Positions 2,489 through 48,926 of a stretch of DNA of 64,000 bases are shown here, piece after piece (position 1 is the first letter of the stretch; each line of letters begins with the position of its first letter). The DNA comes from Oceanicola sp. 22II-s10i (GTDB lineage: Bacteria; Pseudomonadota; Alphaproteobacteria; Rhodobacterales; Rhodobacteraceae). The stretch spans positions 124,001 through 188,000 of the forward strand of contig NZ_AQQU01000006.1 of NCBI RefSeq assembly GCF_002210105.1. Reading direction: 5' to 3'. A model generated the notes under the pieces. That model was not told the origin of the DNA and made no database searches. It saw only the letters and a program-made list of their open reading frames with translations. Made by a program: the position numbers and the translations under genes.

Positions 2489-2696
2489 GGATCGACCCCT
2501 TCCTTGGTTCCCCATCCGGGGCGCTGCGACCGAATCGCCGTGCCCGGAACACCGTTCCGCAGTCTAACCAATGACTTCGCCAATCCCAACCGGAAGGCGA
2601 GCCGGCCGAAAGCAGCCTTCCGCCCTTCCCCGCCCTTGCTATTCACGTCCCGGCTGGTAAATGCGCGGTCAGCCCCGTTGCCGAGAGGAGTCCCCG

Positions 2697-4712
2697 ATGG
2701 ACATCGCTGCCCTGCGAAATGCCCACCCCGAACACTGGAACATGGCCACCGCGATCCGCGTTCTGACACTGGATGCAGTCGCCGCCGCGAATTCCGGGCA
2801 TTCCGGGATGCCCATGGGGATGGCCGACGTGGCGACCGTGCTGTTCACCAAGCACATGAAGTTCGACGCAGCCGCGCCGAACTGGATCGACCGCGACAGG
2901 TTCATCCTGTCCGCCGGCCACGGTTCCATGCTGCTCTACTCCCTGCTTTACCTCACCGGCTACGAACAGTTCCCGATCGAGGAAATCCGCAACTTCCGCC
3001 AGCTCGGCGCACGGACGGCGGGCCACCCCGAGAATTTCCTCGCCCAGGGGATCGAGACGACGACCGGCCCGCTGGGTCAGGGCATCGCCAACTCGGTCGG
3101 CTTCGCCATGGCCGAGGAGATGCTGCGCGCCCGCTTCGGCAAGAAGGTGATGAACCACCACACCTACGTCATCGCCGGCGACGGCTGCCTGATGGAGGGC
3201 GTCAGCCAGGAGGCCATCGGCCTGGCAGGGCGGCATGAGCTGGGGCACCTGATCGTGTTCTGGGACAACAATAACATCACCATCGACGGCAAGGTCGATC
3301 TGGCCGACCGCACCGATCAGGTCGCGCGCTTCAAGGCGTCGGGCTGGCACGTGCAGGAAATCGACGGCCACGACCCCGAGGCCATCGACGAGGCGATCCG
3401 CGCCGCCAAGGCGACCAAGGCGCCCTCGATGATCGCCTGCAAGACCCACATCGCCATCGGCCACGCCGCGCAGGACACCTCCAAGGGCCATGGCGCGCTG
3501 ACCGACGCCAAGCAGATCGAGGCCGCGCGGCAGGTCTATGGCTGGACCGCCCCCGCCTTCGAAATCCCCGCAGACATCAAGTCCGCATGGGAAGAGGCCG
3601 GCCGCCGCGGCGCCAAGGACCGTTTCGCATGGGAAGAGGGCTTTGCCGCCCTGTCCGACCGCAAGCAGGCCGAGATCAACCGCGTCTTTGCCGGTGAAGC
3701 ACCCAAGAAACTGGCCTCGGTCATCCGCGCGCTGAAGAAGCAGGCGGTCGAGACCGAGCCCAAGGTCGCCACCCGCCGCGCCTCGGAAATGGTGCTGGAG
3801 GTGGTGAACCCGGTGATGCCGGAAACCGTCGGCGGGTCCGCCGACCTGACCGGGTCGAACAACACCAAGACCGCCGACATGGGCGTCTTTGACGTCGACA
3901 ACCGCGAAGGCCGGTTCGTCCACTGGGGCATCCGCGAACACGGCATGGCCTCGGCGATGAACGGGATGGCGCTGCACGGCGGGATCCGGCCCTACTCGGG
4001 CACCTTCATGTGTTTCACCGACTACGCCCGCCCCGCGATGCGGCTCTCGGCGCTGATGAAGCAGCCGGTGGTCTACGTGATGACCCACGATTCCATCGGT
4101 CTGGGCGAAGACGGCCCGACGCACCAGCCGGTCGAACATCTGGCCATGCTGCGCGCGACGCCGAACATGCTGGTCTTCCGCCCCGCGGACGTGGTCGAGA
4201 CCGCCGAAGCGTGGGAAATCGCACTGACCCAGACCGACACGCCGTCCGTGCTGTCGCTGACGCGCCAGAACGTGCCGACCGTCCGCAAGGACAACAAGGC
4301 GCGCAACATGGTGGCGCAAGGTGGCTACATCCTGGCCGAAGCCGAGGGCAAGCGGCAGGCGATCCTGATCGCCACCGGCTCCGAGGTCGAGATCGCGCTC
4401 AAGGCGCGCGACCTGCTGCAGGCCGAGGGGATCGGCACCCGCGTCGTGTCCATGCCGTGCTGGGAACTCTTCGCGGCGCAGGACGAGGCGACCCGCAAGC
4501 GCGTGCTGCCCGCAGGCCCCGTCCGCGTGGCGGTCGAGGCCGGTGTCGACATGGGCTGGGACCGCTGGCTCTGCGGCGAGCGCGGGCGCGAGAACAAGGC
4601 GGGCTTCGTCGGCATGACCGGCTTCGGCGCCTCCGCCCCGGCCGAGGTTCTGTACGAACATTTCGGCATCACTGCCGAAGCGGTGGCCGAAAAGGCGAAA
4701 TCGCTGCTCTGA
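2697..4712 (+). CDS. tkt: Transketolase
   Basis: Transketolase transfers two-carbon ketol units between sugar phosphates in the pentose phosphate pathway, using thiamine diphosphate. The 671-residue length is normal. Thiamine/metal-site motifs include [10 protein letters not shown] near the N terminus, GHGSMLLYS, and [13 protein letters not shown] with a following DNNN. The central pyrimidine-binding domain has [10 protein letters not shown]. The ATG at 2697 is preceded by GAGAGGAG; an in-frame ATG 12 codons earlier is less likely. It is divergent from the zapA pair, and gap lies downstream on the same strand. Confidence 0.97.
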
Positions 4713-4785
4713 CCGGCGCGGGGCGTCTGGACGCCCCCGCTGACCCGCCTAAGGTGGGGCCCGACCGCGAACGGAAGGACCCCAC

Positions 4786-5721
4786 ATGGCGCAGATACTG
4801 CTCTTTGCCCCGAACGCCGAAGATTTCGCCCGCGAAATCAAGGCACTGAACCCCGAACTTGAGATCGCGACCGCCCGCAAGGGCGACGAGGCCAAGGCGC
4901 TCGGGGCGGATACCGAGATCCTGATCACCATGGGCGCCGGCCTGACCGACGAGGTCCTCGCGGCGATGCCCCGGCTCAAATGGATTCAGGCGCTGTCCGC
5001 AGGCACCGACCATATCCAGAAGCTGACACTGCCCGAAGGCGTCGCGCTGACCTCGCTGGCCGGTGCGCACGGGCCGCAGATGTCGGAATACGCCATCCTG
5101 ATGATGCTGACCCTGCCCCGCCGCTTCCGCGAGACGCTGGCGCACCAGAAGGATCACGCATGGACCCGGTGGCCGGTGCCGATCCTGACGGGAAAGACGC
5201 TCTGCATCTTCGGACTCGGCGCGATCGCCGAAGCGCTGGTGGACCGCGCCCAGCCCTTCGGGATGAACATCACCGGCGTGTCGGACGGGCGGACCGAGAT
5301 GGCGGGCCTCTCCCGCATCTACCGGTACGACGAACTGGAACAGGCGGCGGCGGATGCGGATTTCCTGTGCATCCTAGCGCCCTTGACCGAGAAAAGCCGG
5401 GGCAGCGTGGATGCCAAGGTGCTCAAGGCGCTTGGCCCCGACGGCTACCTGATCTCGCTCGGGCGGGGCCCGGTGATCGACGAGGATGCGCTGGCCGACG
5501 CCCTGCGCGACGGCATCATCGGCGGCGCGGGGCTCGACGTCTTCGCCAAGGAGCCGCTGCCCGCCGACAATCCGCTCTGGGACATGGAGCGGGCGATCAT
5601 CACCCCGCATATCGGCGGGTTCTCGGACAGCTATGCGATACAGGGCGCGCCGATCATCACGGGCAACCTCGCCGCGTGGAAGACAGGCGGCGCGGACGCG
5701 TTGAAGAACCGCGTCCTCTAG
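4786..5721 (+). CDS. Glyoxylate/hydroxypyruvate reductase-type D-2-hydroxyacid dehydrogenase
   Basis: This is a 311-residue NAD(P)-dependent 2-hydroxyacid dehydrogenase closest to the GhrA type, which reduces glyoxylate or hydroxypyruvate. The nucleotide-binding glycine motif GLGAIAEAL is at about residues 143-151. The catalytic triad is visible as Arg227 (SLGRGPV), Glu256 (AKEPLP) and His275 (TPHIGG). GGAAGGAC precedes the ATG. Its last four bases overlap the convergent DoxX gene. The exact substrate cannot be told from sequence alone. Confidence 0.85.
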   Translation: MAQILLFAPNAEDFAREIKALNPELEIATARKGDEAKALGADTEILITMGAGLTDEVLAAMPRLKWIQALSAGTDHIQKLTLPEGVALTSLAGAHGPQMSEYAILMMLTLPRRFRETLAHQKDHAWTRWPVPILTGKTLCIFGLGAIAEALVDRAQPFGMNITGVSDGRTEMAGLSRIYRYDELEQAAADADFLCILAPLTEKSRGSVDAKVLKALGPDGYLISLGRGPVIDEDALADALRDGIIGGAGLDVFAKEPLPADNPLWDMERAIITPHIGGFSDSYAIQGAPIITGNLAAWKTGGADALKNRVL

Positions 5722-6113
5722 CCCAGCCGGAACCGACCGGCCCCGTGGGCGGCGAGAACCAGACAGCCGCCCGCGATGGCCCAGTTCTTGACGAAAATCG
5801 TCATCTGCCAGGGATCGTCCGGCAGGAAGTGGAAGGCCGAGGTCACGCCGCAATACACCGCCAGCGCGGCGGCCACCGGCCGGACAAAGACCCCGGCGAT
5901 CAGGGCCACCCCCGTCAGCGCGTTGAACACCAGCGCGGGCCAGACCAGCCAGACCGGCCAGCCAAAGCCCGCCAGCAACCCCTCGACCGGCGCGGGATCG
6001 GTCGCCTTCTGCACCGCGCCCCCCAGAAACAGCGTGGCGATCAGGATGCGCCCGACCAGCACGGCCAAATCCGCCGCCGTGCCCCCTGTCGCTCTGTGAT
6101 CCCGTTCCACCAT
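5718..6113 (-). CDS. DoxX family membrane protein
   Basis: This protein of about 131 residues has four hydrophobic segments (about 15-32, 52-68, 70-92, 108-124) and the arrangement of the DoxX/DoxD family of small inner-membrane proteins. RILIATLFLGGAVQK near the N terminus matches the family's usual start. DoxX proteins are implicated in redox and stress functions, but the activity is poorly defined. An alternative ATG lies four codons upstream at 6125. The gene sits convergent to the hydroxyacid dehydrogenase and divergent from gap. Confidence 0.72.
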   Translation of the reverse strand: MVERDHRATGGTAADLAVLVGRILIATLFLGGAVQKATDPAPVEGLLAGFGWPVWLVWPALVFNALTGVALIAGVFVRPVAAALAVYCGVTSAFHFLPDDPWQMTIFVKNWAIAGGCLVLAAHGAGRFRLG

Positions 6114-6272
6114 GCCCCACCACATAGCGCAGCCTGCGCGAACGGTTAGCGCCACCATCGCCGATTGATCCAAGGTTATCGCTAACACACTGGAAAACAT
6201 CGGCTTTCGCGCTTTATTTCCGTGACCTTTTCGGCCTATACCGCCCCCGAATTCCCTGACAGGAGAGCCAAC

Positions 6273-7274
6273 ATGACCGTCACCATCGGCATCAACGGGT
6301 TCGGACGCATCGGCCGCTGCACGCTGGCCCATATCGCCGAAAGCGCCCGCAACGACGTTCAGGTCGTCAAGCTGAACGCCACCGGCCCGATCGAGACCTC
6401 GGCCCACCTCCTGCGCTACGACAGCGTGCACGGCCGGTTCGGCGGCAAGATCACGACCGACGGCAACACCATGGACATCGGCCGCGGCCCGATGGAGGTG
6501 TTTTCCACCTATGATCCCAACGAGCTGGACTGGTCCGGGGTCGACGTCGTCCTCGAATGCACGGGCAATTTCAACGACGGCGACAAGGCCAAGGTGCACC
6601 TTGAGCGCGGCGCCAAGAAGGTGCTGATCTCGGCCCCGGCCAAGAACGTGCAGAAGACCATCGTCTTTGGCGTGAACCACCGCGACCTGCAGGCCGGGGA
6701 CACGATGATCTCGAACGGGTCCTGCACCACCAACTGCCTCGCCCCGCTGGCCAAGGTGCTGAACGACGCCATCGGCATCGAATCGGGCATCATGACCACG
6801 ATCCACGCCTATACCGGCGACCAGCCGACGCTGGACCGGCGGCACAAGGACCTCTACCGCGCCCGCGCGGCGGCGATGTCGATGATCCCGACCTCGACCG
6901 GCGCGGCGAAGGCGCTCGGCGAGGTGCTGCCGGAGCTGAAGGGCAAGCTGGATGGCTCGGCCATCCGCGTGCCGACACCCAACGTCTCGGCGGTGGACCT
7001 AACCTTCCTCGCCGGCAATGACGTGACCGAGGCCGACGTGAACGAAGTCGTGCGCGAGGCCGTCGCGGGCCCGATGTCCGCCGTCATGGGCTACGATCCG
7101 GAACCCAAGGTCTCCATCGACTTCTCCCATACCGAGGAATCGTCGATCTTCGCCCCCGACCAGACCAAGGTCATCGGCAAGCGGCTGGTCCGCGTGCTGG
7201 CGTGGTATGACAACGAATGGGGCTTCTCATGCCGGATGGCCGACGTGGCCGCCGCCATGGGCCGCCTGAACTGA
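6273..7274 (+). CDS. gap: Glyceraldehyde-3-phosphate dehydrogenase, type I
   Basis: This NAD(P)-dependent enzyme of central carbon metabolism is 333 residues long. It shows the Rossmann start TIGINGFGRIGR, the catalytic cysteine in NGSCTTNCLAP (the family usually has NASCTTN), the phosphate-binding stretch after PTSTGAAKA, and WYDNEWGFS near the C terminus. The ATG at 6273 follows AGGAGAG at 6261-6267. A hairpin terminator lies 25 bases after the stop. Association with tkt upstream fits coordinated sugar-phosphate metabolism. Confidence 0.97.
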   Translation: MTVTIGINGFGRIGRCTLAHIAESARNDVQVVKLNATGPIETSAHLLRYDSVHGRFGGKITTDGNTMDIGRGPMEVFSTYDPNELDWSGVDVVLECTGNFNDGDKAKVHLERGAKKVLISAPAKNVQKTIVFGVNHRDLQAGDTMISNGSCTTNCLAPLAKVLNDAIGIESGIMTTIHAYTGDQPTLDRRHKDLYRARAAAMSMIPTSTGAAKALGEVLPELKGKLDGSAIRVPTPNVSAVDLTFLAGNDVTEADVNEVVREAVAGPMSAVMGYDPEPKVSIDFSHTEESSIFAPDQTKVIGKRLVRVLAWYDNEWGFSCRMADVAAAMGRLN

Positions 7275-42279: not shown

Positions 42280-42905
42280 AGGGTCCCCTCCCGTTTCTTC
42301 TCGGCCGCGTAAAAGGCCCAGAGCATCCGCGCCGCCACCGCCCGCCACGGGCTCCAGCGGCCGGCCATGTCCCGGATCGCACCCGCGTCCGGCCGGTCCG
42401 ACAAGCCGTAGAGGATCCGCGCGCCCTCCTGCAAGGCCAGATCGCCCGCCGGAAAGACATCCGCCCGGCCCAGCGCCGCAAGGGCATAGATCTCCGCCGT
42501 CCACGGCCCGATCCCCGGCAGCGCAACCAGCGTCGCGATGGCCGCGGCGTCCGGCATGTCGCGCAGCGCGTCGAAATCGACCCCCGTCCCGGCGATCCCC
42601 AGCGCATAGCGGATCTTGGGCCGCGACAGGCCGACGCCCCGCAGCCCTTCCTCGCCCGCCGCCAGCACCGCCTCCGGCGCGGTCAGGCCCGCCCCCTCCA
42701 CCCGCGCCCAGATCGCGGCGGCCGAGGCGACCGAGACCTGCTGCCCCACGATCGCCTGCATCAGCGCCACGAAACCGTCCGGCCTGCGCCGCAGCGGCGG
42801 CAGGCCGCAGCGCTCCAGCGCCCGCGCCATGCCCGTATCCCGCGCGGCCAGCCAGTCGGCGCCTTCCCGCACGTCCTCCATGCTCTCGATCAAGCGTCCC
42901 GTCAC
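42276..42905 (-). CDS. DNA-3-methyladenine glycosylase, AlkA-like HhH-GPD protein
   Basis: The 209-residue protein has the helix-hairpin-helix GPD core: MQAIVGQQVSV, LSRPKIRYALGIA, and ALPGIGPWTAEIYALAALGRADVFPAGDLALQ, which includes the catalytic Asp of the glycosylase family. It excises alkylated purines in base excision repair. GTG 42905 is chosen as start; ATG 42950 or ATG 42881 remain possible. The region 42906-43176 upstream holds no gene I can recognise. Confidence 0.83.
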   Translation of the reverse strand: MTGRLIESMEDVREGADWLAARDTGMARALERCGLPPLRRRPDGFVALMQAIVGQQVSVASAAAIWARVEGAGLTAPEAVLAAGEEGLRGVGLSRPKIRYALGIAGTGVDFDALRDMPDAAAIATLVALPGIGPWTAEIYALAALGRADVFPAGDLALQEGARILYGLSDRPDAGAIRDMAGRWSPWRAVAARMLWAFYAAEKKREGTL

Positions 42906-43176
42906 CGCGCGGCGGTCCCTGCGGCGGGAATGGCCCCCCGCGTCCGGCATTCGGACCGAGCGGCGGGCGTGGCGGGCCCTGCGCCGGGGCGCAGTGCATT
43001 TCGGGCTCTCCGTTTCATCGGGCCGAGGATAGCCGCCGCATCCTCCGGCGCCAGACTTTTCCGCTCCCTCGCCGCGAACCGGCCCGGCGGGCGACAGCAC
43101 TGCACAATTCGCTTGGCGCGACTCGGGCGAAATCCTAGAGACTTCACGTCAGCTTCTGTCACCGCCACACCCCAGC

Positions 43177-43731
43177 ATGAGCCAGACGGACCCGTTCACC
43201 ACACCGCAGGACGAAATCAGGGCATGGCACCGCCATCGCGCGGGGGCCGGATCGGGCCTGAGCCTGACGCCCGACCTTCTGACGTTGGCCCAGTCCGGCG
43301 CCGCGATCCTCTTTGCCGCCCGCACCGCAGAGGGCCGCCCGACCAGCGGCACAGGCATTTCCTGCCGCGCCCTCGCCCCCGACCGGCTGCGCATGGTGCT
43401 GAGCGCCGGGGCCAACCGCCCTGTGCTCGAGGCGCTGAGGCACGGCAGCCGGATCGCCGTCACCTTCACCGGCTCGCAACAGCATCACCAGTCGTTCCAG
43501 ATCAAGGCCGGCACCGCCGACATCCTGCCCGTCCGGCCCGATGACCTGCCCGAGATGGAGCGCCAGTCGCAGCTGTTCTGCGAGGGGCTGGGCAGCATCG
43601 GCTTTACACGCGAACTGGCCGAGGGGTGGCTGCTGGTCGATCCCGACGACCTGATCGCGATGGAGGTCACGCCGGAACGCGTCTTTACCCAGACCCCCGG
43701 CCCCGGCGCGGGGGCGGAGCTGTTGCCGTGA
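43177..43731 (+). CDS. Pyridoxamine-5'-phosphate-oxidase-like (FMN-binding split barrel) protein
   Basis: The 184-residue protein has the split-barrel pattern: SGAAILFAARTAEGRPTSG, then LRMVLSAGANRPVLEALRHG, IAVTFTGSQQHHQSFQIKAG and a C-terminal helix-strand. It likely binds FMN, F420 or heme; the classical PNPOx catalytic residues are not obvious. Its stop overlaps the GTG start of the following split-barrel/GAF gene, so the two products are made together and may form a heterodimer or a ligand relay. Confidence 0.75.
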   Translation: MSQTDPFTTPQDEIRAWHRHRAGAGSGLSLTPDLLTLAQSGAAILFAARTAEGRPTSGTGISCRALAPDRLRMVLSAGANRPVLEALRHGSRIAVTFTGSQQHHQSFQIKAGTADILPVRPDDLPEMERQSQLFCEGLGSIGFTRELAEGWLLVDPDDLIAMEVTPERVFTQTPGPGAGAELLP

Positions 43732-45062
43732 CCCCGACCCTCGACATGCTGCGCCGTTCGCTCGAAGGGGTCTATGCCTCGGTCCTGGCCACCTGCGACG
43801 AGGACGGCCTGCCCAACGTCTCGATGATCAGCCAGGTGCACTACCTCGATCCCGACCACGTCGCGCTGTCCTACCAGTTCTTCAACAAGACCCGCGAGAA
43901 CCTGCTGAGAACGCGGATGGCCACCGTGCAGGTCGCCGATCCGGCGAACTTCGCCCAGCACCGCATCGAACTCGACTATCTGGAAACCCGCACCGGTGGG
44001 CCGGTGTTCGAGACGATGAAGGCCAAGCTGGCCGGGATTGCCTCGCATCACGGGATGGAAAGCGTGTTCCGCCTGCTCGGCGCCGACATCTTCCGCGTGC
44101 GCAGCATCGAACCGGTGCCGGGCCCGGCGATGGAGCCCTGCGCGGCGGCGAACGGCCTGCTGGCCGCCGTGCGGCTGGCCTGCACCGCGCTGGAGGCCGC
44201 CGCCGATCTGGACGACCTGCTCGAAACCGGCACGGCCTGCCTCGAGACGCAGTTCGGTATCGCCCATTCGATGATCCTGATGACGGAGGACGACGAGGAC
44301 CGGCTGTTCACCGTCGCCTCGCGCGGGTATCGCCGGTCCGGCATCGGGTCCGAGGTGGCCTTCGGCGAGGGCGTGATCGGGGTCGCCGCCAGCGAAGGCG
44401 TCCCGATCCGCATCTGCCACATGACCAGCGATTACCGCTATGGCGCGACGATCAGCGAAACCGCGCGGCAGGCGGGGCTGATCGGCCGCAGCATTCAGGT
44501 CATCCCATTTCCCGGCCTGCCGAACCCCGGCAGCCAGATCGCGCTGCCGCTCCGCTCGGGCTCGCGTCTGCTGGGCGTGCTCTTTGCCGAAACCGAACAG
44601 GTCATGCGGTTCGACCACGAGGTGGAGGATGCGCTGGCCGTGATCGCGATGCACCTCGGCGCGCGGATCGCGCAGTTCCTGCGCGACGATGCGGACGACG
44701 AGGAACCGGTCGAGCCCGAGGCGCGTCCCGCCGAAGGCTCCGTCGCGCTGCGTTTCCATCCGCATGACCAGAGCGTGTTCCTCGACAACGACTACCTGAT
44801 CAAGGGTGTCGCGGGCGCAATCCTGTGGCGGCTGGTGCGGGAACATGCGGACACCGGCCGGACGGAGTTCACGACCCGCGAACTGCGCCTCGACGCCTCG
44901 CTGCGTCTGCCCGCCCATGCCGAAAACCTCGACGCCCGCCTGATCCTGCTGCGCAAGCGGCTGGAGGAACGTGGCGCCTGCCTGCGGATCGAGAAGTCGG
45001 GCCGGGGCCGGTTCCGGCTGAACATCCTGTGCGGGCTGTCGCTGATGGAAATGGCCGACTGA
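43728..45062 (+). CDS. Split-barrel flavin-like domain + GAF + C-terminal winged-helix-like domain: putative one-component regulator
   Basis: The 444-residue protein joins three modules. Residues 1-135 are a PNPOx-like split barrel (GVYASVLATCDEDGLPN, VALSYQFFNKTRENL). Residues 140-318 are a GAF domain (VAFGEGVIGVAASEGVPIRI; SQIALPLRSG, LLGVLFAET). After an acidic linker (319-338), residues 340-435 resemble an OmpR/PhoB-type winged helix, ending LRIEKSGRGRFRLNI. A flavin- or ligand-sensing transcription factor is inferred. GTG start overlaps the upstream stop. Phased TTAGCA repeats lie just downstream, before an FAD oxidase gene. Confidence 0.7.
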   Translation: MTPTLDMLRRSLEGVYASVLATCDEDGLPNVSMISQVHYLDPDHVALSYQFFNKTRENLLRTRMATVQVADPANFAQHRIELDYLETRTGGPVFETMKAKLAGIASHHGMESVFRLLGADIFRVRSIEPVPGPAMEPCAAANGLLAAVRLACTALEAAADLDDLLETGTACLETQFGIAHSMILMTEDDEDRLFTVASRGYRRSGIGSEVAFGEGVIGVAASEGVPIRICHMTSDYRYGATISETARQAGLIGRSIQVIPFPGLPNPGSQIALPLRSGSRLLGVLFAETEQVMRFDHEVEDALAVIAMHLGARIAQFLRDDADDEEPVEPEARPAEGSVALRFHPHDQSVFLDNDYLIKGVAGAILWRLVREHADTGRTEFTTRELRLDASLRLPAHAENLDARLILLRKRLEERGACLRIEKSGRGRFRLNILCGLSLMEMAD

Positions 45063-45087
45063 ACGTGACGCAGGGGCACCTCGTCAT

Positions 45088-45146
45088 TTAGCAATTTCTT
45101 AATATTAATTAGCATCCTTTAGCATTCGGATAAGGTTTTCTTAGCA
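45088..45146 (+). promoter_or_regulatory. Helically phased TTAGCA direct repeats upstream of the FAD oxidase gene
   Basis: Exact TTAGCA occurs at 45088, 45109, 45119 and 45141, spacings 21, 10 and 22 (about 2, 1 and 2 helical turns), with a partial copy TTAATA at 45099. The patch is AT-rich within GC-rich DNA. OmpR/PhoB-type regulators bind direct repeats at one-turn spacing, and such a domain ends the gene just upstream. Confidence 0.6.
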
Positions 45147-45309
45147 AGCCTTGTCGATCCGCCGGGCGTATCAGCCCCTCAGCGGCAGCGACGCGGCCCG
45201 GACGATCAGAACCGGCGCAGAACCCCCGCAAAACCTTTTGAAACCAATCGCTTCGGCGCCGACCTATTGGCGGCGCATGGCGATACCCACGCTTATGATG
45301 GAGACAATT

Positions 45310-46683
45310 ATGAACGAAGATACTCTCAGAACCCGTTTGAAGGGACAGCTTGTGACGGCGTTCGAACCCGGCTTCGGCGCTGCCGCCGACGACCTGATCT
45401 GGAACGGCCGCAAACCCGGCGTCCGGGCGCGCTATATCGTCCGCGCCGCCAACGTGGCCGACGTGCAGACCGCCGTCCGCTTTGCCGCCGCCAACGGCTT
45501 CAGCGTGTCGCCGCGCAGCAGCGGCCACCACTTCACCGGCATCTCGACACAGGCGACCGTGGTCATCGACCTCGAGGCGCTGAACCACCTGCGCATCGAC
45601 GCCGAGGCGATGGTCTGCGAAGCGGGCCCGACCGTCACCAACGCCCGGCTGAACGCCGAACTGACGGCGCGCGGCCTTGCCTTTCCGGTGGGCCATTGCG
45701 CCAGCGTCGCCATCGGCGGCTACCTTCTGGGCGGCGGCGTCGGCTGGAACTCGGGCGAATGGGGCATCGCGTGCTTCCTGATCGAGTCGGTCGACATCGT
45801 GACCCCCGACGGCGTCCTGCGCCGGGTCAGCGCGACCGAGGAACCGGACCTGTTCTGGGCCGCCCGCGGCGCGGGGCCGGGGTTCTTCGGGATCGTGACC
45901 AGCTACCGCCTGCGGGTGAAGAAAGCGAAGCCCGCGATCATGTCGGCGGTGCGCGTCTATGGCGCGGATCACCACGGGGCGGTTTCCGGCTGGGTCCGGC
46001 AGGCGATCCGCCGGGCGCCCGCGAACCTCGAACTGTCGCTCAAGGTGTCGACCGAGGTCTCGCCGGTCGGGCCGATGGTCGCCATCGCCGTCATCGCCAC
46101 GGCCTTCGGGTCGAGCGAGGCGGAATCGCGGGCGATCCTGTCCGAATTCGGCCGGGGCGCCCCGGCGGGCGCATTCATCGAAGTGCCCGAGATGCCGACC
46201 TCGATCGCCGGTCTCTACGACATGACGGGCGCGGGCACGCCCAAGGGGCACCGCTTTGCCGTGGACTCTCTCTGGTCGGACGCGCCGGTCGCGGATGTCC
46301 TCGCCGGGATCGTGGCCACCATGCAGAAGGCGCCATCGGCCAAGAGCTTCGCGGTCCTCTCGCCCAGTTCCCCCGCCGCCGCGGTACCGGGCGAAGCCGC
46401 CTTCTCGCGGATCGGAAGCATCTTCGGGGCGATCTACACTGTCTGGCAGGACGAGGAGCAGGACGCGCGGCAGATCGGCTGGCTGCGGTCCGGCATGGAC
46501 AGCCTGCAACCGCTCAAGGCGGGGGTCTACGTGGGCTACGGCGACATCGACGTGCCCGCGCGGCGCAAGGAAATCCATTCCCGCCCCGCCGAACTGCGCC
46601 TTGCCGAGATGCGCCGCCGGTATGACCCGCGCGGCCTGTTCGGTCAGGCCCTCGGCCACACCACCAGCGCGCAGGCCGCCTGA
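45310..46683 (+). CDS. Berberine-bridge-type FAD-linked oxidoreductase, probably bicovalent FAD
   Basis: The 457-residue protein has the PCMH FAD domain with PRSSGHHFTG, where His73 is the usual 8-alpha attachment residue. PVGHCASVAIGGYLLGGGVGW follows, with Cys130 at the position that forms the second covalent link in bicovalent flavoenzymes. The C-terminal RRRYDPRGLFG is the BBE motif. It would oxidise a sugar, alcohol or amine-like substrate using oxygen. GGAG stands seven bases before ATG 45310. No signal peptide is evident. Confidence 0.88.
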   Translation: MNEDTLRTRLKGQLVTAFEPGFGAAADDLIWNGRKPGVRARYIVRAANVADVQTAVRFAAANGFSVSPRSSGHHFTGISTQATVVIDLEALNHLRIDAEAMVCEAGPTVTNARLNAELTARGLAFPVGHCASVAIGGYLLGGGVGWNSGEWGIACFLIESVDIVTPDGVLRRVSATEEPDLFWAARGAGPGFFGIVTSYRLRVKKAKPAIMSAVRVYGADHHGAVSGWVRQAIRRAPANLELSLKVSTEVSPVGPMVAIAVIATAFGSSEAESRAILSEFGRGAPAGAFIEVPEMPTSIAGLYDMTGAGTPKGHRFAVDSLWSDAPVADVLAGIVATMQKAPSAKSFAVLSPSSPAAAVPGEAAFSRIGSIFGAIYTVWQDEEQDARQIGWLRSGMDSLQPLKAGVYVGYGDIDVPARRKEIHSRPAELRLAEMRRRYDPRGLFGQALGHTTSAQAA

Positions 46684-46812: not shown

Positions 46813-47664
46813 ATGACCGAATCACTTCCCACTCCGCCCGGCGGCTGGCCGGTGCTCGAACCCGGATGGGTCTGGCTCTGCGGTGCGGGGCCCGGCGATC
46901 CGGGCCTGCTGACCCTGCACGCCCTCAACGGGCTGCGGCAGGCCGACGTGGTGGTCTACGACGCGCTCGTGCAGAAGACGATCCTCGACTGGGCGCCGCA
47001 GGCCGAACATATCTACGCCGGCAAGCGCGGCGGCAAACCTTCGGCCAAGCAGCGCGACATCTCTCTCCGGCTCGTGGACCTCGCCCGCGCGGGCAAGCGT
47101 GTGCTGCGGCTGAAGGGCGGCGATCCCTTCGTTTTCGGACGCGGCGGGGAAGAGGCGCAGACCCTGATCCAGCATGGCGTCTACGTGCGCATTATCCCCG
47201 GCATCAGCGCGGGGATCGGCGGGCTGGCCTATGCCGGCATCCCGGTCACGCACCGCGACGTGAACCAGTCGGTGACCTTCGTCACCGGGCATGACCAGAC
47301 CGGCGCGACGCCAAGCTCGCTGAACTGGCGCGCGATCTCGGACGGGTCGCAGGTGATCGTGATCTACATGGGCATGAAACACGTGGAACGGATCGCGGCG
47401 GACCTGCTGGCGGCAGGTCGCCCGGCGGACGAACCCTGCGCGGTTGTCTGCGCGGCCACCACCCCGGACGAACGGGTGCTGGAAACCACGCTGGGCCGGA
47501 TGGCGGCGGACATCGCCGCCGCCGAGTTGGAACCGCCGGCAATCCTCTGCGTCGGACGCTCGGTCCTGATGCGGCAGGTGCTGGACTGGCAGGCGCTGGC
47601 ACGGGGCGAGGCGCCGCGCGACCTCGATCCGCTGGGACGCGGACGGCCGGCCGAGGCATCATGA
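46813..47664 (+). CDS. cobA: Uroporphyrinogen-III C-methyltransferase
   Basis: CobA adds two methyl groups from SAM to uroporphyrinogen III to give precorrin-2, feeding cobalamin and siroheme synthesis. The 283-residue protein shows GAGPGDPGLLTLHAL at about 23-37, VVYDALV, the LRLKGGDPFVFGRGGEE motif and PGISAGIGGLAYAGIPVTHR. Its end overlaps the next gene by ATGA, so it is coupled to a CobB homologue. A multifunctional CysG is excluded because no N-terminal dehydrogenase/chelatase domain is present. Confidence 0.94.
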   Translation: MTESLPTPPGGWPVLEPGWVWLCGAGPGDPGLLTLHALNGLRQADVVVYDALVQKTILDWAPQAEHIYAGKRGGKPSAKQRDISLRLVDLARAGKRVLRLKGGDPFVFGRGGEEAQTLIQHGVYVRIIPGISAGIGGLAYAGIPVTHRDVNQSVTFVTGHDQTGATPSSLNWRAISDGSQVIVIYMGMKHVERIAADLLAAGRPADEPCAVVCAATTPDERVLETTLGRMAADIAAAELEPPAILCVGRSVLMRQVLDWQALARGEAPRDLDPLGRGRPAEAS

Positions 47665-48926
47665 CAGCACTGATATTCGCCGCGCCCGCATCGGGGGCCG
47701 GCCTGTCGACCGTGACACTGGCGCTGCTGCGGCACCTGACGCTGACCGGTCACGACATCCGCGGCGCGAAGTCCGGTCCCGATCACGTCGACCCGCGTCT
47801 GCACGAGGTCGCCTGCGGGCGCATCTGCCACAACCTCGACGCATGGGCGATGTCGCCCGAGCGGATCCGCGAGCTGGCCTCCGGCCCGGAACTGCTGCTG
47901 ATCGAGGGGGCCGCCGGGCTGTTCGACGGCGCGCCGGACGGGCGCGGCGCGGTGGCGGACCTGGCGCGGATGCTGCGCCTGCCGGTGGTTCTGATCGTCG
48001 ATGCCGGCCGGATGGCGCAGTCGGTCGCGCCGCTTTGCACCGGATTTGCAAAGCACGATCCCAACGTTCGAATAGAGGGCGTGATCCTCAACAACGTTGG
48101 GTCCCCCCCGCACGAGGCGATGCTGCGCGGCGCGCTGAAAGCGGCCGGACTGACCGTGCTGGGCGCCCTGCCCCGGCATTCCGGGATCGCCATGCCGCGA
48201 CGAACCGGCCCGCTGCAGGCGGATGAGCGCGCGGATCTGGAGGCGGTCCTGAACCGCGCGGCAGAATGGGTGGCCGAGGGCACGGATATCGACGGACTGC
48301 TGGCCCTTGCCGCGCCGCATGCGACGCGCAGGTCGGACACCCGGCTGACACCGCCCGCGCAGCGCATCGCGGTGGCCCGCGACGCCGCCTTCGTCCAGAC
48401 CTATCCGCATATCCTCGCCGACTGGCGGCGCGCCGGGGCCGAGATCGTCCATTTCTCGCCTCTGGCCAACGAAAAGGTGCCCGATGCCGGGTTCATCTAC
48501 CTGCCTGGCGGACCGGTCCAGGATCACGCGGGGCGGATGGCCGAAAACGGGATCTTCGTGAAGAGCCTGCACCGCGCCGCCGAAAGCGTGCCGGTCCATG
48601 GCGAGGGCGGTGGCTACATGGCCCTTGGCCGGTCGCTCACCGACGCGACGGGCGCGACGCACCGGATGGCGGACCTGCTGGACCTCGACGTTTCATTCGC
48701 CACGCCGCGCCTGCACCTCGGCTACCGGCACCTGACCGATCTGGGCGGGCCCTTCGGCGGCCACCTGACGGCGCATGAGCATCATGCGGCCACCACCCTG
48801 CGCGCCGAGGGCGATCCGCTCTACGCCGCCCACGACGCCACCGGCGCCGCGCTGCCACCGATGGGCCTGCGCAAGGGGCACGTCTCGGGCTCGTTCGCCA
48901 ACGTCATCGACCGCGCCGCCCCCTGA
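47661..48926 (+). CDS. CobB/CbiA-like cobyrinate a,c-diamide synthase homologue lacking two key residues
   Basis: The 421-residue protein aligns by eye over the whole CobB length: N-terminal ATPase (IFAAPASGAGLSTVT), GPDHVDPRLHEVACG, and a C-terminal glutamine-amidotransferase part (PVHGEGGGYMALG). CobB amidates cobyrinate with glutamine and ATP. Two expected residues are absent: the P-loop lysine (Leu at position 15) and the amidotransferase cysteine (Gly316 in GEGGGYM, where the family has GECGGYM). The frame is intact. It may be inactive or use free ammonia. Confidence 0.75.
   Translation: MTALIFAAPASGAGLSTVTLALLRHLTLTGHDIRGAKSGPDHVDPRLHEVACGRICHNLDAWAMSPERIRELASGPELLLIEGAAGLFDGAPDGRGAVADLARMLRLPVVLIVDAGRMAQSVAPLCTGFAKHDPNVRIEGVILNNVGSPPHEAMLRGALKAAGLTVLGALPRHSGIAMPRRTGPLQADERADLEAVLNRAAEWVAEGTDIDGLLALAAPHATRRSDTRLTPPAQRIAVARDAAFVQTYPHILADWRRAGAEIVHFSPLANEKVPDAGFIYLPGGPVQDHAGRMAENGIFVKSLHRAAESVPVHGEGGGYMALGRSLTDATGATHRMADLLDLDVSFATPRLHLGYRHLTDLGGPFGGHLTAHEHHAATTLRAEGDPLYAAHDATGAALPPMGLRKGHVSGSFANVIDRAAP

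Follow-up and report, generated by a model that had tools for sequence, protein, structure and literature searches.

We examined a 64,000-nucleotide stretch of the genome of Oceanicola sp. 22II-s10i (contig NZ_AQQU01000006.1, positions 124,001 to 188,000; hereafter the window, to which all unqualified positions refer), and in particular a gene at 43728-45062 whose product joins a split barrel, a GAF domain and a predicted DNA-binding winged helix. This gene, which we call the regulator gene because its product is very likely a transcription regulator, lies between a gene for a second, stand-alone split barrel, which we call the partner, and a gene for a flavin adenine dinucleotide (FAD)-dependent oxidase; an array of TTAGCA direct repeats occupies the interval between the regulator and oxidase genes (Table 1). 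An earlier note on this DNA had described the regulator protein, and its interpretation is partly supported by the results below; the upstream second split-barrel gene, the repeat array and the associated FAD-oxidase, cytochrome and E1 genes had not been pointed out there. Taken together, we consider it likely that the gene pair encodes a two-subunit, one-component and probably activating regulator, with a sensor made of two barrels and a GAF domain, that controls redox enzymes.

Table 1. Positions of genes, protein domains and predicted DNA elements in the window.
Feature	Position	Strand	Basis or remark
Partner gene: stand-alone split-barrel protein, 184 residues, HxxxQxK strand, C-terminal QTPGPGAG motif	43177..43731	+	
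Regulator gene: split barrel, GAF, winged helix; 444 residues	43728..45062	+	GTG start, Pfam, structure models
Split-barrel domain, residues about 1-130	43728..44117	+	Pfam, full model, Foldseek, PDB profile (3in6, HupZ)
GAF domain, residues about 140-320	44145..44687	+	
Flexible acidic linker, residues 321-337	44688..44738	+	pLDDT < 50 at 323-333
OmpR/PhoB-type winged helix, residues 338-441; recognition helix 398-414, wing 419-433	44739..45050	+	
Predicted operator: TTAGCA at 45088, 45109, 45119, 45141; steps 21, 10, 22 bp, helically phased	45088..45146	+	
Predicted -10 element TATCAG, 22 nucleotides past last repeat	45169..45174	+	
Predicted target: FAD-dependent oxidase (FAD_binding_4/BBE, EncM-like), 457 residues	45310..46683	+	ATG 45310 is our choice of start

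Architecture of the predicted regulator and its split-barrel partner

The open reading frame (ORF) of the regulator is unbroken from a GTG start at 43728, which overlaps the stop codon of the partner gene, to a stop codon at 45060-45062, in agreement with the single intact 444-residue protein that the earlier note had claimed. In this protein Pfam recognised GAF_2 at residues 158-312 (39.1 bits; cut-off 28.6) and GAF at 160-314 (32.8 bits; cut-off 22.4), and PNPOx_N at 9-79 scored 27.7 bits, slightly below its cut-off of 28.1. Both PNPOx_N and GAF were matched at E <= 0.01 in all 80 sequences of an alignment of the window protein and 79 relatives; with the folds seen in the models, this places the first domain among PNPOx-like split barrels (PF01243) and the second among GAF domains (PF01590/PF13185). 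The closest PDB sequence to the fused barrel is 3in6, which is called a flavin mononucleotide (FMN)-binding protein (profile E 3.8e-4; Foldseek E 1.5e-8), and HupZ was also matched (profile E 0.03; Foldseek E 6.8e-8). The model of the full protein had a mean predicted local distance difference test score (pLDDT) of 83.3 and a predicted template modelling score (pTM) of 0.81, with low confidence in an insertion of the GAF domain (238-257) and pLDDT below 50 in the linker (323-333). Pfam and the models agree with the domain order that had been proposed, relatives at 39-71% identity retain it completely, and the proposed limits were roughly right, shifting slightly to those in Table 1. As had also been noted, Pfam and NCBIfam found no receiver or kinase domain; where OmpR-family response regulators have an N-terminal receiver, this protein has the PNPOx barrel and the GAF domain.

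Conservation within the protein is highest in the C-terminal domain (mean column agreement of 0.74, versus 0.70 in the barrel and 0.64 in the GAF domain). Modelled alone, residues 336-444 reached a pLDDT of 90.6 and a pTM of 0.85, and both this and the full-protein model have a winged-helix topology with the N-terminal beta sheet, three helices and C-terminal wing of the OmpR/PhoB fold, as the earlier note had predicted for residues 340-435. The note had named a different fold of these residues as an outcome that would refute its reading, and the models speak against that outcome. An extra C-terminal strand is present in the full-protein model. Residues 335-444 matched zero Pfam or NCBIfam models, and a PDB sequence profile search for this fold gave no match; Foldseek and VIA-align on the full model were uninformative about the C-terminal part, as GAF and phytochrome rows dominated their output, with few barrel rows.

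A scan of genome contigs with C-terminal peptides gave at least 583 confirmed stretches, and the best 80 of these (L051-L130), which their record titles assign to alpha-, beta- and gammaproteobacteria and Geothrix, were examined. A QTPGPxAG tail occurs near the C-terminus in 78 of 8974 ORFs of at least 80 residues from 80 loci, and all 78 immediately precede the regulator. Counting a QTPGVGAG variant in L115, the partner is directly upstream in 79 of 80 loci (only L098 has no such gene there), and all 11 of the more divergent loci that were checked (40-50% identity; L017, L019-L021, L031-L037) likewise have the tail motif ahead of the regulator. A single profile comparison shows a weak relationship between the two barrels (E 7e-4; 26% probability), and they differ in their conserved residues, which are NKTRxN in the fused barrel and HxxxQxK plus QTPGPxAG in the partner. 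PNPOx_N was detected in 10 of 43 partner sequences at E <= 0.1, the window's own copy being unmatched, and the best PDB sequence relative of the partner is 2htd (E 0.013). As split barrels usually dimerise around a cofactor, we infer that the two barrels form a heterodimer with one composite site. A stand-alone barrel in genome G182 (L027 / L050, 5440-6012, minus strand; 33% identical), with no partner motif in the ORFs of its 11-kb stretch, is possibly a divergent paralogue.

Operons in three other genomes (L045, L046 and L047) share with the window a partner barrel, a related barrel and a GAF domain; there the counterpart of the fused barrel is encoded on its own (39-40% identical to the window's fused barrel in L045 and L047) and the following gene joins GAF to a class III nucleotide cyclase, whereas in the window the barrel is fused and the output is a winged helix. 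The cyclase was confirmed by Pfam (Guanylate_cyc) for L045 and L047, and is read from the sequence for L046. No exact TTAGCA pair was found in the examined stretches of these operons. These operons appear to encode a cyclic-nucleotide version of the window's sensor. The L045 operon (2604-6442) also has an HD domain and a second cyclase gene.

These data bear on what the barrels do. Split-barrel proteins are often small flavin enzymes, and the partner might be an enzyme, for example a flavin reductase, that is merely co-transcribed with the regulator and is not its subunit; we think this rather unlikely, given that the partner keeps its place immediately upstream while the downstream metabolic genes vary freely and that it is retained beside the cyclase form too. 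A further alternative is that the barrels hold no cofactor and only dimerise, leaving the GAF domain as sole sensor. The weak PNPOx_N scores, weaker still in the partner, would fit such barrels, but the strong conservation of the distinct motifs in each barrel, the retention of both in the cyclase-type operons and the FMN-binding label of 3in6 make this account unlikely.

Repeat arrays and redox genes beside the regulator

The window oxidase is EncM-like along its full length (E about 1e-36), and EncM carries out unusual flavin chemistry. Within 8 kb of the regulator, members of the partner's sequence cluster were found in 64 of 81 loci. At this distance cytochrome c was present in 39 loci and an FAD oxidase in 30, of which 27 have it on the regulator's strand. 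E1 alpha and E1 beta dehydrogenase subunits were present in 17 and 15, respectively, and an SO2930 diheme-like cytochrome and a hemerythrin-like protein in 9 each. Each cluster was labelled from one or two of its members, and the matches behind the diheme and hemerythrin labels are below curated cut-offs. Among 78 downstream same-strand proteins, FAD_binding_4 was matched in 26, Cytochrome_CBB3 in 15, E1_dh in 10 and hemerythrin in 4. The associated genes are mostly related to redox chemistry or electron transfer, which leads us to favour a flavin or heme cofactor, the weakest step of our argument. A cassette of E1 alpha, E1 beta and cytochrome c genes recurs beside the regulator in L097, L099, L106, L112 and L123. 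In the window, the oxidase is followed on the same strand by uroporphyrinogen-III methyltransferase and cobyrinate a,c-diamide synthase genes (46813-48926), which are not among the recurrent neighbour clusters of the 81 loci.

The four TTAGCA copies of the window stand in helical phase, and 100 shuffles of the window produced 0 such pairs. The earlier note had suggested that the protein could act directly on DNA, with 45063-45310 as the stretch to test; the phased array found there is indirect support for such action. Across 26 oxidase-type loci, 42 exact TTAGCA copies in all lay in 260 nucleotides, versus 0.9 expected, with at least one in 23 of 26. The hexamer was also present in the hemerythrin (4/4) and cytochrome (3/3) loci and in those with c13, a protein not assigned to a family (2/2), and in only 1 of 11 E1 and diheme loci. 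In all, 43 arrays were found in 41 of the 81 loci (1.48 Mb), versus a mean of 0.9 and a largest value of 4 for 24 letter permutations. About one regulator locus in two has an array with OmpR/PhoB-like spacing, and these loci span alpha-, beta- and gammaproteobacteria. For 36 of the 43 arrays the nearest same-strand gene is one of the associated genes, and 6 of those 36 (in L079, L099, L111, L112, L115 and L123) are on the strand opposite the regulator, so the array tracks the target rather than the place where the regulator gene ends. In L055, L056 and L057 the first repeat shares bases with the TAG codon that ends the regulator gene.

When arrays were aligned on their last repeat, further copies lay at -22 in 29 of 42, at -33/-32 in 32, at -43 in 10 and at -11 in 8. 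A TA[TGA] trinucleotide occurs 21 or 22 nucleotides past the last repeat in 34 of 42 arrays, compared to no more than 5 at offsets outside this peak, the reference repeat having been picked with this spacing in mind. A sigma-70-type -35/-10 pair was not found in 42900-45400, which is uninformative because only 0.3 would be expected by chance. The spacing also speaks to the direction of control. The same regulator could instead act as a repressor whose bound array blocks the promoter until ligand or oxidation releases it, as one-component regulators are often repressors and, with TATCAG taken as the -10 element, the last repeat would lie close to the promoter, at about -40. Yet in those 34 of 42 arrays the last repeat ends at a fixed distance before the -10-like box without overlapping it, and such spacing is better explained by an activator that replaces the -35 element than by a roadblock; we therefore regard repression as improbable.

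Genome-wide searches related the array to the regulator by position. In the organism's own genome (5.1 Mb) the exact pair pattern had 3 overlapping matches, all at the 45088-45146 site, versus 2 for a mirrored control; a wide regulon in this genome is thus unsupported, with the limit that single or imperfect sites would escape detection. In 23 genomes with the regulator, 19 of 30 pair matches were at most 1.3 kb from it, in 11 of the 23 genomes. Autoregulation through TTAGCA sites was rejected, as the region ahead of the partner gene shows no excess of the hexamer; in G189, G091 and G575 a repeat pair lies 0.5-1.3 kb upstream of the regulator start. Oxidase orthologues (E <= 1e-60) were present in 11 of 295 genomes of the bacterial family, and 10 of these carry the regulator with the oxidase directly downstream on the same contig. 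The remaining genome, G137, has the oxidase and a cytochrome c; the regulator was found neither among the genome matches nor in the 9 kb examined, and there is no array. This single case, a modest contrast, points to the regulator rather than the enzyme as the companion of the array, and it disfavours the idea that the array belongs to the oxidase gene as such.

Proposed mechanism

We propose that the partner barrel and the N-terminal barrel form the input of the regulator, most likely as a heterodimer with a flavin- or heme-type cofactor at the interface, and that the GAF domain provides a second input by binding a small ligand. The flexible acidic linker would join these sensors to the winged helix, and the state of the cofactor together with the GAF ligand would set the activity of the regulator. 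The earlier note had suggested that the protein could read redox state plus a metabolite, with FMN, F420 or heme as candidate cofactors of the barrel. In the active state, several copies would bind head to tail, side by side on the phased repeats, and would aid RNA polymerase at a promoter with the predicted -10 element, turning on the FAD oxidase gene. In related bacteria, the same module adjoins, and probably controls, genes for cytochrome c, diheme cytochrome, E1 dehydrogenase or hemerythrin.

Several results weigh against this model. Trans_reg_C (PF00486) was matched in 0 of 80 members at E <= 1, a negative limited by HMMER filters that discard most matches above 0.1; hhalign of the C-terminal domain against the 7 OmpR domains of the same genome gave nothing significant; and Foldseek by itself returned no match to the C-terminal part with an E-value of 0.001 or lower (best 0.081). 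An array is missing from about half of the loci, both by the main criterion given above and by a looser one (present in 15 of 31 genome-search loci), and of 60 promoters from array-less loci, 9 had variant phased TTAG or TTAAG repeats, a count with no shuffle control, and the remainder had nothing recognisable. The array is also absent from 3 of the 10 loci that combine regulator and oxidase (G113, G260 and G329) and present in 7. Nor is the exact pair pattern rare: in 46 further genomes it had 47 matches and the mirrored control 162, and 17 of the 47 matches, including 5 phased ones, fell in the 23 genomes that do not have the regulator; because the mirrored control exceeds the pattern, the number of matches alone is uninformative and it is their place that is telling.

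The array-less regulator-plus-oxidase loci, the lack of sequence similarity between the C-terminal domain and known DNA-binding families, and the fact that not all winged helices bind DNA (the structural fold list for this one includes ScpB and MCM8) might all suggest that some other regulator binds the array and that the winged helix serves only to stabilise the complex or to interact with another protein, but we consider this very unlikely, as arrays accompany the regulator in three proteobacterial classes, are absent from the only regulator-less oxidase locus found and from the examined cyclase-operon stretches, and resemble the 10-11-bp tandem direct repeats that OmpR/PhoB domains recognise, as described for PhoP (PMC4832192).

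Apart from these comparisons, the promoters of L125, L126, L105 and L116 have phased TTAAG-type repeats in place of TTAGCA, and the regulators of these loci have SDNLEARL in the recognition helix, with a glycine at position 409 in three of the four. That residues of the recognition helix seem to change along with the TTAGCA or TTAAG form of the repeats is suggestive, and may possibly reflect a specificity code.

Relation to known systems and distribution of the family

Each part of this system is of a known kind. Compared to OmpR/PhoB response regulators, the window protein has no receiver and no Trans_reg_C match, carries the additional C-terminal strand, and takes its input from two split barrels and a GAF domain instead. 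With PNPOx-like split barrels such as 3in6 and the HupZ/HutZ heme proteins it shares barrel fold and sequence, but the window has two different, adjacent barrel genes, one of them fused to GAF and a predicted DNA-binding domain. Unlike proteins with PtsP- or NifA-type GAF domains, it contains no phosphotransferase-system enzyme or AAA+ domain, and its GAF domain has the low-confidence insertion described above. CodY of Firmicutes is likewise a one-component protein in which a GAF input is joined to a winged-helix output. CodY is described as a sensor of branched-chain amino acids and GTP (PMC5314169). For the repeat array, the closest published analogue that we found is the PhoP site, with direct repeats of 7 bp and a 4-bp spacer (PMC4832192). 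In the portions of the open-access literature searched, we found no description of this architecture, of paired barrels, of the orphan winged helix or of the operator, nor of the combination.

Near-complete relatives (E <= 1e-77) were found in 20 of 394 genomes of the bacterial family, a count that includes one cut off where its contig ends, one interrupted by a stop codon and the organism's own genome, and relatives at E <= 1e-40 were found in 12 of 385 genomes of the class, one of them incomplete and the own genome again counted. The distribution of the regulator is patchy. Decayed copies (L026, L006) comprise a lone C-terminal fragment in G261 and a regulator split into two frames in G260. 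One locus (L075), in a record titled Oceanobacillus, is 57% identical to the rhodobacterial regulator, and this genome is probably mislabelled or contaminated. Among 20 plasmid records listed, 9 label the gene 'GAF domain-containing protein' and 11 have no annotation for it.

More broadly, and at a confidence that falls somewhat short of even, these genes may represent an undescribed sensor family: an obligate heterodimer of two unlike split barrels that share a composite site for a flavin- or heme-type cofactor and act by way of GAF on outputs that can be swapped (either an OmpR-like winged helix, unrecognised by Pfam, that binds direct repeats of the TTAGCA type, or a class III nucleotide cyclase), controlling redox enzymes across several proteobacterial classes and Geothrix. 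This would assign a function to a large family, of at least 583 stretches, that is annotated at most as 'GAF domain-containing protein' in the plasmid records listed. It would also add a predicted DNA-binding domain missed by Pfam and NCBIfam, together with a predicted operator and candidate targets, and would make it possible to test whether split barrels can work in pairs to sense signals instead of as enzymes.
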